Assembly: GCA_023382755.1 (NCBI GenBank)
Contig: JAHDWR010000006.1
Location: 1 to 38,107, forward strand
DNA from: Dehalococcoidia bacterium
Lineage (GTDB): Bacteria > Chloroflexota > Dehalococcoidia > Tepidiformales > Tepidiformaceae
Reading direction: 5' to 3'
Length of the DNA stretch: 38,107 nucleotides
The notes under the pieces were generated by a model that saw nothing but the letters and a program-made list of their open reading frames with translations, had not been told where the DNA came from and did not search any database. The translations under genes and the position numbers were made by a program. Below are positions 14,303-20,307 of the stretch, piece after piece; within the stretch, counting starts at the first letter, position 1, and each line of letters begins with the position of its first letter.

Positions 14303-14396
14303 GAGCTCCCTCAATCTACCGCGGGAAAAGGTGACTTGTCCTGCACCTTGACGCTTGGCCCCGGTAGAGGAACGATGCCCCGCAGCGAAGCAGTTC

Positions 14397-14534
14397 GCGA
14401 CGCCTAGCCCGCTTCCGCGGGACGGGGGACCCAGTTTTCGGGGCGAATTCGCCATGGTGACCTCCACGGGAGGCCCACGACGGCGAAACGGCTATCTCCG
14501 GCCGTAGCCCGGCAGCTAACCTCGGCGGCGTGGG
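14397..14534 (+). promoter_or_regulatory. c-di-AMP riboswitch (ydaO/yuaA class)
   Basis: The conserved ydaO/yuaA aptamer segments appear in order: ACGCC at 14400-14404 opening helix P1, ACGGGGGACCCA, TTTTCGGGGCGAATTC around 14434-14450, then CCGGCAGCTAACC around 14509-14521 and CTCGGCGGCGT, whose GGCGT at 14527-14531 closes P1 with ACGCC. The 3' part is almost the family consensus (CAGCTAACCTCG). The class binds cyclic di-AMP and usually turns the downstream gene off. The ATG of the glycosyltransferase lies about 12 bases downstream, so control is probably at translation initiation. CCTC (14539-14542) can pair with GAGG (14548-14551) around that ATG. A possible promoter is TTGACG at 14348-14353. 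Confidence 0.88.
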
Positions 14535-14545
14535 AAGACCTCGAC

Positions 14546-16315
14546 ATGAGGCCTCCTCGAATGGCCCTCCGGGCTCGCGTTTCCCCTCCGGCGCGGTCCC
14601 ACACCCTCCCGCCTCCCGAACTCGCGGTGTATGCACCGTCGGCGATCGGCGAACGAGTGTGGAACCTCATCCCCCTCTCCCTCTCCCTCCTCCTCATCAG
14701 CTTCATCTTCTGGGGGCCCTTCTACGCGCCCGTGCCCTTCGCCATCCTGAGCCTGGCGTTCTTCGTCTACTGGTTTTTCCGTTCGTATTCGGTTGCCATC
14801 GCCTGCGTCTACGGACTCTCCCGCATCAGACGCTGGAAGCAGACTGACTGGGTAGCCCGGTACGCCGCCGGTCACGCCCATCGCCAGGCAGCCGAAGCCT
14901 GGGACTGGCCCCGGCACATGGTCATCATCCCCAACTACAAAGAAAGCGAGTCCGGCCTCAGCCGAACGCTCGACTCGCTCGCGGCCCAGGCCAACGCCAG
15001 CCAGCTCGTCGTGGTCATGGCCATGGAAGCCCGCGAGGCCGGCGCTGCCGAGAAGGCGGCGCGCCTGGTTGCCCGCTACCGGCCCCGCTTCGCCAACATG
15101 TTCGCCACCTTCCACCCCGAAGGGCTCCCCAACGAAACGCCCGGCAAGGGTTCCAACGAGGCATGGGCAGCCCGCGAAGCTTACCTCCACCTGATCGATG
15201 ACGGCGGCCAGGACATCCGTCGCTACACCGTCACAAGTTGCGACGCCGACGCGGTTTTCCATCCGAACCACTTCGAGGCGCTCAACTACCTCTTCCTCAC
15301 CGCGCGCGACCGTTACCGCACTTTCTGGCAGCCCACCATCTTCAACAGCAACAACATCTGGGATATCCCGGCGCCCCTCCGCATCCCCGATGGACTCTCG
15401 GGCATCAACCGCCTCTCGAACCTGCTCCTCCCTGGCAGCGTGAAGTTCCCGACCAGCTGCTACTCCCTCAGCTGGCAGATGCTCAACGAAGTCGACTACT
15501 GGGACGAAGAAGTCATCCCCGAGGACTGGCACCTGTTCCTCAAGTGCTCCTATTCCCTTGGCGACCGCGTGCATGTCGAGTCGTTGTTCCTTCCACTTGG
15601 CAACGACTGTGTCCTCACCGATGGCTACTGGAAGACGTTGAAGGCCCACTACGCCCAGAGCGTCCGCCATGCCTGGGGCGCCAGCGACATCCCCTACGCC
15701 TGGCGCGGTGCCTTCAACCTCGGGTCACCCCTCCGATGGCCGCGTAAGCTCCTCCTGGCGGCGGCCGTAACCAAGGTCCATGTGCTCTGGGCCGCCCAGT
15801 GGTACATCGTCACGCTCGGCCTGCTCCTGCCATCGAAGATGGCGGGCAGCATGGGCGCCCCTCTGCCACGGTGGTGGACCCACCGCTACCCCGTCCCCGG
15901 GCCCGGGTGGCACCCGGAAAAGCTCATCGACGTTTCGAGCTGGGACAACTTCGACCGTACCGGCCTGGTCGAGCCCACGATGTGGCTCAACCTCCCGGGC
16001 GTGCTGATCGCCCTGTGTATCTTCCCGCTCCTCACCATGATCGGCCTCGAGCTCATCCAGCGAGGCAAGCGCCCGGCCTACGTCTCGCGGTGGACATACG
16101 TCACCGGCCTCTTGATGTGGCCCCTCATGGCCGTCATCACCTTCTTCTTCGCGAGCCTCCCCGCGCTCCACGCGCAGTGGAAACTCGCCAGCGGCCGGGG
16201 CCTCGTGTATCGCGTCGCCGAAAAAGGCAGCCGCAGCGCGCCGGTCGTCCCGCAGATTACCGCCGGCCACGGTGTCGAGGCGGAGGCCATGGGAATCGCG
16301 GGCGGAGGGCAGTAA
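14546..16315 (+). CDS. Membrane-bound family 2 glycosyltransferase
   Basis: A 589-residue inner-membrane glycosyltransferase. Two hydrophobic spans (about 40-60 and 62-80) precede a GT2 catalytic domain: HMVIIPNYKES, the nucleotide-sugar/metal DxD-type motif SCDADAVFHP (D233, D235), the acceptor-side IPEDWH (E326, D327) and QSVRHAWGAS in the place of the processive QxxRW. Three or four further membrane spans follow between about 415 and 545. It looks like a polymer- or long-chain-forming enzyme of the envelope. ATG 14546 or ATG 14561 could be the start; the first lies nearest the riboswitch. The upstream c-di-AMP riboswitch implies that it responds to cell-envelope or osmotic status. Confidence 0.85.
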   Translation: MRPPRMALRARVSPPARSHTLPPPELAVYAPSAIGERVWNLIPLSLSLLLISFIFWGPFYAPVPFAILSLAFFVYWFFRSYSVAIACVYGLSRIRRWKQTDWVARYAAGHAHRQAAEAWDWPRHMVIIPNYKESESGLSRTLDSLAAQANASQLVVVMAMEAREAGAAEKAARLVARYRPRFANMFATFHPEGLPNETPGKGSNEAWAAREAYLHLIDDGGQDIRRYTVTSCDADAVFHPNHFEALNYLFLTARDRYRTFWQPTIFNSNNIWDIPAPLRIPDGLSGINRLSNLLLPGSVKFPTSCYSLSWQMLNEVDYWDEEVIPEDWHLFLKCSYSLGDRVHVESLFLPLGNDCVLTDGYWKTLKAHYAQSVRHAWGASDIPYAWRGAFNLGSPLRWPRKLLLAAAVTKVHVLWAAQWYIVTLGLLLPSKMAGSMGAPLPRWWTHRYPVPGPGWHPEKLIDVSSWDNFDRTGLVEPTMWLNLPGVLIALCIFPLLTMIGLELIQRGKRPAYVSRWTYVTGLLMWPLMAVITFFFASLPALHAQWKLASGRGLVYRVAEKGSRSAPVVPQITAGHGVEAEAMGIAGGGQ

Positions 16316-16327
16316 CGCGCCCCGTCG

Positions 16328-17392
16328 TCAGCGCGCCTGGTCCGGGTCCGCATCTTCAGCCGCCAGGGCCTGTACCTGCTCCACCCGCACCCGGACCTCC
16401 TGCCCCTCGCTCACTCCGGCCGGAGGCGTCTGGAGCGGGAACTCGAGGCGGCCAGCAGCCGAATCGATCACCAGCCGCGTCAGCCCGCCCAGGAACACAC
16501 GGGCCACAACCACACCGCGGACAACGTTCGGGCCTTCGGCCTCGACCACCGACGAGCCCTCGGACCGCAGGAGGAGCCGGACCGGCCCTTGAGCGCCGCC
16601 GCACGGCCCGAACACCCCCGCCGCCGTCTCAACCATCCCGCGCCCATCCCGGACGCCGGCGACGAGGTTCTCCATGCCGAGGAACCGCGCCACAAACTCG
16701 GTTCGCGGATCGCCGTGGACCTCCGCCGGGTCCCCCACGCGCACGACGCGCCCCTCCCGCATGATGGCGAGCTCGTCCGCCACGGCGAATGCTTCAAATT
16801 GGTCGTGTGTGACATAAATAGCCGGGATCGCCAGCCGGCGCAGGATCCCCCGGAGTTCAACCACCAGGTGCTCGCGCAGCCCCCGATCGAGCGACCCGAG
16901 CGGTTCGTCGAGCATCAGGAGCCGCGGTTCCGGCGCCAGGGCCCGCGCGAGTGCGACCCGCTGCCGCTCGCCGCCCGAGAGTCCGTCGAGTTCCCGCCCG
17001 CCGAACCCACCGAGCCCCACCGTCTCCAACAGCTCGTCCACGCGCCGCGTGCGACGTTCGCCGCCCCATCCAAGCCGGCGCAAGCCGAAATCGACGTTCC
17101 GCTCGACATTCATGTGTGGGAAGAGGGCGTGATCCTGGAACATGAGTCCAAACCCCCGCCGATGCGGTGGGATGCCCACCACGTCCACACCGTCGAACAC
17201 AACCTGTCCGGCGCTCGGCCGTTCAAGCCCCGCGATCACCCGCAGCAGCGTCGTCTTTCCGCATCCGCTCGGGCCCAAAAGAGCGACCGTCTTTCCGGGC
17301 CTTACCACCAGGCTCGCGCTCCGCAGGATGTGGGCCTCCCCGGCGCGAAACTCCACGTTGCGCACTTCAAGTCCGTCAGCCACGGCGCCCAT
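16328..17392 (-). CDS. thiQ: Thiamine ABC importer ATP-binding protein
   Basis: A 354-residue ATPase of an importer. Walker A is GPSGCGKT (40-47), the signature LSGGERQR (138-145), Walker B LLMLDEP (158-164) and the switch histidine lies in YVTHDQFEA. About 120 C-terminal residues form a TOBE-like regulatory domain, absent from the short E. coli ThiQ and more like FbpC/PotA-type subunits. It begins 20 bases after the permease stop. I name it thiQ because the binding protein resembles ThiB and the operon starts with a TPP riboswitch; the ATPase alone could equally belong to an iron or polyamine system. Confidence 0.88.
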   Translation of the reverse strand: MGAVADGLEVRNVEFRAGEAHILRSASLVVRPGKTVALLGPSGCGKTTLLRVIAGLERPSAGQVVFDGVDVVGIPPHRRGFGLMFQDHALFPHMNVERNVDFGLRRLGWGGERRTRRVDELLETVGLGGFGGRELDGLSGGERQRVALARALAPEPRLLMLDEPLGSLDRGLREHLVVELRGILRRLAIPAIYVTHDQFEAFAVADELAIMREGRVVRVGDPAEVHGDPRTEFVARFLGMENLVAGVRDGRGMVETAAGVFGPCGGAQGPVRLLLRSEGSSVVEAEGPNVVRGVVVARVFLGGLTRLVIDSAAGRLEFPLQTPPAGVSEGQEVRVRVEQVQALAAEDADPDQAR

Positions 17393-17412
17393 CCCATCCC
17401 GGCTCGTGCACG

Positions 17413-19050
17413 CTAGAACCCTCCGTACTCACGGTAGCGCAGCCGGTCGATGAGGAAGAACCCGGCGGCCGTCACCGCCATCAGGATGGTCGCCATCGCC
17501 AGGGCCTGGCCATAGTTCACCGCTCCCGGCTGGCCCAGGTACCGGAAGATCGCGAGCGGGATGGTTGGGTATTCGGGCCGCGCAATCAGCAGCGTCGCCC
17601 CGAATTCCCCCATCGAGATCGCGAACGCGAACACGCCGCCAGCCAGCATCGACCGCCATGTCAGCGGCAGGTCGATGGCGATGAACGCCCGCAGCGGGTT
17701 CGCTCCCAGCATCGCCGCCGCCTCCCGCAGCCGCGGGTCCAGCGACCTCAGCTGCGCCGCGACCGCCCGGGCGACAAACGGCATCGCCACGAGCGAATGC
17801 GCGATGACCACCATCGCCGGGCTCCCGCGAAGGTCCAGCGGCGGCCGGTTGAGCGTGATCAAGAACCCCAGCCCCAGTGTCACCGCCGAAACGCCCAGCG
17901 GCAGCTGGACTACCGCTTCCGCAAGCGAGGATCGCAGCCGCACCGCGCCATGGGCCGCCAGCGTGCCGAGCGGCACCGCGATCAGCATCGTCAGCAGGCC
18001 AAAGCTCACCGAGTTCCGCACTGCCGTGATCGGCGCCACGAACAGCACCTGCTGCCGGGCGTTGTCGTCCAGCTGCCGATAGTACTCCAGCGTGTAGCCC
18101 GCGCTGCCGTGCACCGATCGCTCGGCCAGCGCCGCCAGCGGCACGATAGTCACCACCGCGATGGTGCTCACGATCGCTCCAACCGCGATGCCCCGTCTCC
18201 GCGTCCACGGCAGTGCCCGGCGCCGCGTGGCGCCAGGCTGCGCCGTCTGTCGTTGCAGGGCCGCATTGACCCACATCGCCGCGAACGTCGCGACCAGCTG
18301 CACGGCCGCCAGGGTCGCCGCCACCGGAAGCCGGAAGAGGAACAGCGTCTCACGGTAGATCTCGGTCTCCAGCGTGGCGTACTGCGGACCGCCAAGGATG
18401 AGCACCACGCCAAAGCTCGTAAAGCAGAAAAGGAATACCAGCGAGGCAGCGGCCAGGATCGGCGTGCGGAGCAGCGGCAGAGTCACGCGCAGGAACGTCG
18501 TCGTCTTTCCCGCCCCGAGCATCGCCGCCGCGTCCTCCAGCCGGGTGTCGAGCCGCGCCCACGACACGGAGACGATGCGTGCCGCGAGCGCGACGTTGTA
18601 GAACACGTGGGCGATCAGGATCGCCCAGATCGTGTTCAGCAGCCGGACTGGCGGTTCGTCCAGGCCGAAGACGGAACGGAGCGCATCGTTCACCACGCCC
18701 TGCGGCCCCAGGAGCGCCGTAAACGCCACCGCAACGACGATCGTGGGCAGCACGAATGGCACGGTGATGAGCGCTTCGAGCGCCGCCTTCCCCCGGAATT
18801 CGTAACAGGCGAGCACGTACGCGACGGGCAGCGCCAGCACGAGCGTCAGTACGGCCGAGACGGTTGCCTGCCACGCCGTGAACCACGCCCGCTCAACGAA
18901 GTACGTGTCTTCGGTCAGCGGGCCCAAGCCCCCTTCCCGGGCGAACGACTCCCGCAGGATCCCCTGGAGCGGATAGGCAAGGAACACCGCGAGAAAGAGC
19001 AGCGCCGGCGCGAGCAGCGCCAGCGCCGTCCGCCGTTCCCGCAAGGCCAC
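17413..19050 (-). CDS. thiP: Thiamine ABC importer permease, two fused membrane domains
   Basis: A permease of about 545 residues with two tandem binding-protein-dependent transport domains, as in ThiP and FbpB, so one polypeptide supplies the whole channel. About twelve membrane spans are visible. Each half has an EAA coupling loop: LEDAAAMLGAGKTTTFLRV in the first and LREAAAMLGANPLRAFIAI in the second. GTG at 19050 lies two bases after the stop of the binding-protein gene and gives the expected N-terminus (ALRERRTALALLAPALL); GTG codons at 19077 and 19089 are also in frame and would overlap the previous gene. It is part of the riboswitch-controlled operon. Confidence 0.9.
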   Translation of the reverse strand: MALRERRTALALLAPALLFLAVFLAYPLQGILRESFAREGGLGPLTEDTYFVERAWFTAWQATVSAVLTLVLALPVAYVLACYEFRGKAALEALITVPFVLPTIVVAVAFTALLGPQGVVNDALRSVFGLDEPPVRLLNTIWAILIAHVFYNVALAARIVSVSWARLDTRLEDAAAMLGAGKTTTFLRVTLPLLRTPILAAASLVFLFCFTSFGVVLILGGPQYATLETEIYRETLFLFRLPVAATLAAVQLVATFAAMWVNAALQRQTAQPGATRRRALPWTRRRGIAVGAIVSTIAVVTIVPLAALAERSVHGSAGYTLEYYRQLDDNARQQVLFVAPITAVRNSVSFGLLTMLIAVPLGTLAAHGAVRLRSSLAEAVVQLPLGVSAVTLGLGFLITLNRPPLDLRGSPAMVVIAHSLVAMPFVARAVAAQLRSLDPRLREAAAMLGANPLRAFIAIDLPLTWRSMLAGGVFAFAISMGEFGATLLIARPEYPTIPLAIFRYLGQPGAVNYGQALAMATILMAVTAAGFFLIDRLRYREYGGF

Positions 19051-19052
19051 GC

Positions 19053-20099
19053 TCAGCGGAGCACCGCCTTCGTCCACTCGTCGATCCACTTCTGCCGGTT
19101 CGCCGCGATGTCGGCCGCGCTCACTTCCGCCACCGGCACCGTCACCTCGGAGAACTTCTGGAATGCCTCGGGCACCGCGGCGTCCTCGTTCACCGGGAAG
19201 ACAGCCATCTGCCCCGGAATGTCTTCCTGCACCGGCACGCTCAACAGGAAGTCGATGAACTTCCGGGCGAGGTCCCGCTGCTTCGTGCCTTTCAGGATGC
19301 CCGCGTACTCAATCTGCCGGAACACGCCTCCCGGCGGCAGGATGTTGGCCGTGGGAGCGTCCTCCCGGGGCGGGTCGGCGAACAGCTGCTCGAATGCCGG
19401 GCTGGTGGCATAGCTCAGGACGATCGGCTGCTCCCCGCCCTGCAGCGAGAAGTTCGTGTAGTACGCCGTCTCCCAGCCGTCGACCACCACCAGGCCGTTC
19501 GCGCGCATGTCGCTCCACCAGTCCAGGTAGCCGTCCTCGCCGAAGTACGCCACCGTCGCGACAAGAAACGCCAGCCCGGGCGAGGATGAGGCCGGGTTTT
19601 CAACCACCGTCATCCCGCGGTACTTGGCCGTCGTGAGGTCTTCGAGGCTCTTCGGCGGCTCGATCCCCTTCGCATTCAGCGCTGCGATGTCGTAGTTGAA
19701 GTTCACATATCCGTAGTCGATTGGCGTGACGAACCCCTCACCCTCCCCGCGGAACTGCGCGGGTACCTTCTCCAGCAGAGGGGACTCGTACTTCTCGAAC
19801 ACGCCCGCGTCGAGCGCTCGCGAAAGGAATGTGTTGTCGACGCCGAAGGCGACATCACCTTCCGGGCGATCCTTGGTCAGCACAAGGCTGGTCGTCATCG
19901 ACCCGGCGTCGCCCTTGGGAAGCAGCTTCACTGTGGCGTTGTGCTCCTCTTCGAACTGCCGGATCAGGTCTTCGCTCAGGTTGAAAGAATCATGCGTGAC
20001 CACGGTGATGGTCTTTTCGCCCTCGTCACCGCCGCATGCGGAGGCGAGGAGGCTTATGGCTGCGATGAGCCCGATGAGGATGGGGATGCGGATACGCAC
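19053..20099 (-). CDS. thiB: Thiamine-binding lipoprotein of ABC importer
   Basis: A 348-residue exported solute-binding protein. The signal peptide ends in the lipobox ASAC with C22 lipidated. The mature part follows the ThiB/TbpA pattern: ITVVTHDSFNLSEDLI, an aromatic-rich binding cleft, GDVAFGVDNTFLSRALDAG, IDYGYVNFNYDI, and WETAYYTNFSLQGGE. GTG 20099 is chosen because the signal peptide starts there and GGAAGGA precedes it by seven bases; an earlier start at 20150 would lie inside the terminator region. With the TPP riboswitch and terminator in its leader, thiamine or thiamine phosphate uptake is the best-supported role. Confidence 0.92.
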   Translation of the reverse strand: MRIRIPILIGLIAAISLLASACGGDEGEKTITVVTHDSFNLSEDLIRQFEEEHNATVKLLPKGDAGSMTTSLVLTKDRPEGDVAFGVDNTFLSRALDAGVFEKYESPLLEKVPAQFRGEGEGFVTPIDYGYVNFNYDIAALNAKGIEPPKSLEDLTTAKYRGMTVVENPASSSPGLAFLVATVAYFGEDGYLDWWSDMRANGLVVVDGWETAYYTNFSLQGGEQPIVLSYATSPAFEQLFADPPREDAPTANILPPGGVFRQIEYAGILKGTKQRDLARKFIDFLLSVPVQEDIPGQMAVFPVNEDAAVPEAFQKFSEVTVPVAEVSAADIAANRQKWIDEWTKAVLR

Positions 20100-20148
20100 C
20101 AGACTGTCCTTCCGCCGCCGGGTTCTCCAGGGGCGCCTCCCGGGCAAC

Positions 20149-20176
20149 AAAAAGGAGCCCGGAAAGCCCGGACTCC
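20149..20176 (-). terminator. Intrinsic terminator, expression platform of the TPP riboswitch
   Basis: On the minus strand GGAGTCCGG and CCGGGCTCC form a 9-bp stem with one G-T wobble and loop GCTTT, followed directly by five T residues. It lies between the aptamer and the thiB start, where it would stop transcription when thiamine diphosphate is bound. Confidence 0.88.
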
Positions 20177-20200
20177 TCGCATCAAGTGCTCGGCATCCGA

Positions 20201-20278
20201 ATCGCTTTCCTCCGCACGTATGAACGTGGTCAGGTTCAAGGGGTCTGATCTCAGCCCGGCGAGGGCACCCCCAGCGAT
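20201..20278 (-). promoter_or_regulatory. TPP (THI-element) riboswitch
   Basis: Read on the minus strand the element starts with ATCGCT and ends with AGCGAT, closing helix P1. Inside are the hallmark segments GGGGGTGCCC, GGGCTGAGATCAGACCC (the CUGAGA core), CCTTGAACCTGACC and the pyrophosphate-binding arm ending GTGCGGAGGAAAG. This is a nearly consensus thiamine diphosphate aptamer. It lies upstream of the three-gene thiamine importer and of a strong terminator, so high TPP should end transcription early. This assigns the operon's substrate better than the protein sequences alone. Confidence 0.96.
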
Positions 20279-20307
20279 CCCGAACAGCTATGAAATTGTC
20301 GCGCTCT

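Follow-up and report, generated by a model that had tools for sequence, protein, structure and literature searches.

The question raised by this locus is whether an RNA resembling c-di-AMP riboswitches controls the gene that it precedes, which encodes a membrane glycosyltransferase of family 2 (GT2), and, if so, in which direction. The messenger c-di-AMP signals turgor and osmotic stress. The locus lies within a 38,107-nucleotide stretch of DNA from a Dehalococcoidia bacterium, analyzed as a whole and referred to here as the window. Our main reading, to which we assign a probability of about 0.8, is that a ydaO-class leader (14391-14560) turns off translation of a lone membrane GT2 gene (14561-16315), which would thereby be a member of an osmotic regulon.

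A cmscan search matched the leader to RF00379 (ydaO/yuaA, c-di-AMP) over the full model (positions 1 to 134) with 63.6 bits and an E value of 1.2e-12, the gathering cutoff of the family being 38 bits. The downstream gene matched PF13632 (42 bits against a cutoff of 27). A preliminary description, made from the sequence alone, had placed a c-di-AMP riboswitch directly before a membrane GT2 gene, and both parts of that claim are borne out by these matches. The elements of the aptamer and its target are as follows.

14391-14541, plus strand: c-di-AMP riboswitch aptamer (ydaO/yuaA, RF00379), structured core at 14401-14530
14401-14404, plus strand: P1 5' strand, CGCC (CM alignment)
14423-14427, plus strand: core helix 5' strand, CGGGG (CM alignment); platform CCUCG at 14539-14543 is a possible alternative partner (constrained folds)
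14444, plus strand: C pairing with G14507, a compensatory C-G replacing the usual U-A and adjoining the conserved GGG/CCC helix
14520-14524, plus strand: core helix 3' strand, CCUCG (CM alignment), preceded by a near-invariant CAGCUAA
14527-14530, plus strand: P1 3' strand, GGCG (CM alignment)
14561-16315, plus strand: membrane glycosyltransferase family 2, 584 amino acids (PF13632), start conserved in orthologues

The pairing of this RNA with this gene is conserved, as the preliminary description had anticipated. Among 41 genomes, the aptamer precedes the GT2 gene in all 17 that have a GT2 orthologue (identity of 44% or more), the present genome among them, and the closest GT2 relatives are from Dehalococcoidia, including Tepidiforma flava and other Tepidiforma. 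Homologous GT2 loci numbered 79, 56 of them Chloroflexota-like; of the latter, the RNA is present at 53 and missing at one (L117), and two come without upstream sequence. The aptamer is thus found before GT2 at 53 of the 54 Chloroflexota loci with upstream DNA, down to approximately 40% protein identity, a count that takes in two loci (L126 and L128) in which the switch is located farther upstream, at approximately 2.3 kb, in front of a GT-C (PMT_2) gene with GT2 following it in the same gene run. The sole exception, L117, has a GT-C neighbor upstream. None of the 23 more distant GT2 homologues, nearly all from Patescibacteria, has the aptamer.

The region between P1 and the gene contains two further elements.

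14532-14557, plus strand: platform hairpin hiding the Shine-Dalgarno (SD) sequence, with 14532-14535 paired to 14554-14557, 14537 to 14552, and 14539-14542 to 14548-14551; -9.8 kcal/mol, z of -1.8
14548-14551, plus strand: SD sequence GAGG, 9 nt before the ATG at 14561 (sequence and orthologue comparison)

The GT2 gene starts at this ATG (MALRAR...), and its orthologues have a conserved ATG 46 to 52 nt past the CAGCUAACC motif. The start had previously been put at the ATG at 14546, which falls within the platform-hairpin loop and is without counterpart among orthologues; since these conserve the ATG at 14561 instead, 14546 was ruled out. It had also been proposed that GAGG could pair with CCUC on either side. 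Pairing with CCUC at 14539-14542 stands and is the conserved one; for 14552-14555, no conserved counterpart was noticed. Across orthologues, the segment between P1 and the ATG typically reads GGAAGA-CCUC-loop-GAGG-UCUUC and covers the SD sequence. Compared with shuffled sequences, the hairpin has a mean z of -2.1 over 25 close orthologue leaders, which are related and therefore nonindependent, and its arms covary, GAAGA/UCUUC being replaced by GAAGU/ACUUC and CCUC/GAGG by CCC/GGG. In four Tepidiforma leaders (L078, L079, L081, and L083), a simple hairpin does not outperform shuffled sequences. These leaders lack a strong SD hairpin, and a CCGC downstream is instead available to pair with the 3' strand of P1.

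In the distant clade (approximately 40% identity), the same site usually has a strong stem followed by a U-run, i.e., an intrinsic terminator. A terminator search of the leader at 14391-14560 found none, and transcription termination was rejected as the platform in the window. That the same aptamer is followed by a ribosome-binding-site hairpin in near relatives and a terminator in distant ones indicates that the link between aptamer and gene has outlived a change in platform type. Both platform types fit an OFF switch. In the mechanism that we propose, high c-di-AMP would close the aptamer through P1 and the core helix, and the adjoining hairpin would then pair CCUC (14539-14542) with the SD sequence, hiding the ribosome site of the ATG at 14561. 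At low c-di-AMP, the aptamer would open, the CGGGG strand may pair with CCUCG of the platform in preference to its own partner, and the freed SD sequence would allow GT2 synthesis to rise. The distant Chloroflexota relatives would regulate the same gene with the same aptamer by way of their terminator.

The aptamer is real and not a chance match. That the RF00379 assignment is accidental or a misannotation could be argued from its middling score, but in view of the E value and the covariation described next the probability is negligible, and conservation already refutes it. A more substantial possibility is that the GT2-linked aptamers form a variant class for another ligand. Near-clade GT2 aptamers score 48 to 80 bits, compared with 70 to 105 for most other switches in the same genomes, and a single extra base before CCCG is frequent among them. 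The contact positions used here are provisional, being those of a published list (PMC7288161) transferred to a sequence to which it is taken to apply. At reported ligand contacts, the near-clade GT2 aptamers without exception carry C in place of the U of the class, and at a contact position close by most carry U or A. However, in all 39 of the near-clade GT2 aptamers the usually U-A position is C-G, the base after GGGG always being C (usually U in the class) and that before CCCG always G (usually A). The pair C14444-G14507 occupies this position, at which pairing is kept in 139 of 140 scored aptamers (U-A in 88, C-G in 51, and one C/A mismatch). The change from U to C is thus compensated by one from A to G opposite, as expected of a base pair and not of a change in specificity, and the second contact position varies in ordinary members, too. 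This U-A/C-G covariation supports the aptamer structure, as found in a near-clade alignment in which invariant columns are present, and weakens the idea of another ligand. Because the decisive substitution is compensated within a base pair, we mostly reject an altered-ligand class and consider it very unlikely; c-di-AMP is the predicted ligand of the GT2-leader aptamer.

The direction of control could also be the reverse, with c-di-AMP binding freeing the SD sequence and GT2 synthesis rising. Thermodynamic (not cotranscriptional) folding of the window leader without constraints hides the SD sequence to 98% in the absence of ligand and does not predict an open free state. In constrained folds of the same kind, enforcing the closed aptamer did not hide the SD sequence further, and with the aptamer helices enforced the CCUC pairing became less exclusive, as an ON switch would have it. 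Forced pairing of CGGGG (14423-14427) with CCUCG (14539-14543) lies 5 kcal/mol above the minimum free energy and frees the SD sequence only partly. On the other hand, the ydaO switches described so far are OFF switches (PMC9960051, PMC11481543, PMC9337991), and the terminator of the distant relatives, directly 3' of P1, has the layout of known OFF members. We therefore regard an ON switch as improbable and infer that c-di-AMP turns GT2 translation off.

The preliminary description had also pointed to the need for a diadenylate cyclase, and a gene for one is present. It is the only one in the genome and of the CdaA type, with 143.8 bits for PF02457 and 215 bits for TIGR00159 (cutoff, 188.8). 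A PgpH-like 7TM-HD protein is also encoded, and the only DHH protein found in the genome reads as RecJ. The cyclase (L038:1402-2238, minus strand) has an intact RHRA motif, and its DGA motif reads DMA. DMA likewise replaces DGA in all eight same-family cyclases compared (the set of L038 and L216-L228), while DGA is kept in all five out-of-family cyclases compared; RHRA is intact in every cyclase of both groups. Cyclases were detected in 25 of 29 switch-bearing genomes versus 1 of 12 without a switch. In the genome itself (3.6 Mb, 380 contigs), eight RF00379 RNAs exceed the cutoff and a ninth match is weak; all but one of 24 same-family relatives have 2 to 11 such RNAs, and in a sample of 301 genomes from the phylum, 50 had at least one.

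We read 68 other switch loci for their targets, naming families by profile match so that the functions given are predictions. Trehalose-phosphate synthase OtsA lies behind a switch at four loci (L172, L184, L211, and L213), a KamA-family radical SAM enzyme resembling lysine aminomutases at three (L179, L188, and L204), GlgE at two (L064 and L198), and an MrpA-like antiporter subunit at one (L214). Transporters of the MFS (eight loci) and SulP (five loci) families recur. So do two small zinc-ribbon-like proteins, one at 12 loci and the other at 11, the latter often with a LuxR-type response regulator behind it, as well as a cytidylate-kinase-linked protein and a 170-amino-acid protein (9 loci each). 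Within the family, a genome may carry as many as 11 c-di-AMP switches (L060-L067, L155-L214), many before short zinc-ribbon-like proteins. The predicted trehalose, GlgE, beta-lysine-type, and transporter targets suggest that the switches serve adaptation to osmotic stress, a regulon in which GT2 would be controlled together with trehalose, maltosyl-glucan, beta-lysine-type, and transport genes.

What the GT2 enzyme makes is a separate matter. Sixteen GT2 orthologues share an invariant DxD (D228/D230), E321-D322, and QxxRHAW at 366-372 (Q366, R369, and W372), the last a variant of the QxxRW motif. The structure model has moderate confidence (pLDDT of 71), with helices at 28-93, 393-430, and 478-543. 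Foldseek matched it to archaeal mannosyltransferase, hyaluronan synthase, and cellulose synthase, with E values down to 2e-7, although query-normalized TM-scores of the PDB matches were low, below or near 0.4. No sequence relative of GT2 was found among PDB structures, in PHROGs, or on plasmids. In the near clade, the gene stands alone, the switch being its only widely conserved neighbor, so the glycan could not be named from widely shared neighboring genes. Elsewhere in the window, a TPP riboswitch (RF00059, 66.9 bits; 20190-20282, minus strand) precedes an ABC importer run (16328-20150, minus strand) of binding protein, permease, and ATPase, probably a thiamine-type transporter.

In Patescibacteria, where it lacks the switch, and in a few Chloroflexota, GT2 adjoins a GT-C gene, an adjacency that favors an envelope glycan. 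Together with fold and motifs, this makes an envelope or surface glycan, or a lipid-linked one, the likely product. The switch could act as described and the enzyme nevertheless add single sugars to a lipid carrier or make a glycosylated compatible solute. Compatible-solute genes are well represented in the regulon, the first Foldseek match is a nonprocessive archaeal mannosyltransferase with mannosylglycerate synthase lower among the matches, and the PMT-like GT-C neighbor of distant relatives would use lipid-linked sugars. These points make such a product quite possible, although we lean against it given the flanking transmembrane helices and the D, D, ED, and QxxRHAW motifs, which resemble those of processive GT2 enzymes such as hyaluronan and cellulose synthases.

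BcsA cellulose synthase is activated by c-di-GMP at the protein level, through PilZ. If our reading of an OFF switch before GT2 is right, a cyclic dinucleotide would here, too, control a processive-type membrane GT2, but by c-di-AMP at the RNA level. That c-di-AMP controls a surface polysaccharide through RNA in Chloroflexota, as a counterpart of c-di-GMP and cellulose and as an arm of a regulon for trehalose, maltosyl-glucan, and beta-lysine-type solutes, is a broader proposal that we hold only tentatively and consider somewhat doubtful.

Like other RF00379 members, the leader has an aptamer over the cutoff, a terminator or ribosome-binding-site hairpin directly after P1 (across its relatives), and a cyclase in the genome. 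It departs from the usual members in its membrane GT2 target, its occurrence in Chloroflexota, its lower score, the compensated core pair, and the one-base insertion. Published targets of c-di-AMP switches are K+, osmolyte, and amino acid transport and cell wall genes (PMC7266159, PMC9960051, PMC10117811). The literature searched, with primary lists of ydaO targets outside its scope, contained no GT2 target and no c-di-AMP in Dehalococcoidia, and GT2 is apparently an unreported target of a known riboswitch class. The c-di-AMP regulon is thereby extended to a conserved membrane GT2 in a Chloroflexota lineage, which offers a clue to the function of an unstudied GT2 family that Patescibacteria also have and is tractable in that complete genomes and named strains are available for members of Tepidiforma.

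The closest parallel in platform is the nlpC c-di-AMP riboswitch of Corynebacterium glutamicum, an OFF switch that has no canonical terminator and reportedly acts at the level of translation, with an SD-complementary element proposed (PMC9960051). There, the target is a cell wall peptidase in an operon, whereas here a single GT2 gene follows an adjacent, conserved SD-hiding hairpin. In Dehalobacter, a tandem Na+/c-di-AMP switch precedes a lysine-2,3-aminomutase gene and acts through a transcription terminator; in the published model, bases of the aptamer core pair with the platform stem at its left shoulder (PMC9337991). The terminator, the tandem Na+ aptamer, and the lack of a GT2 target set that system apart from the present one; what the two have in common is the proposed pairing between aptamer core and platform and a KamA-family target, found behind switches in the present lineage as well.
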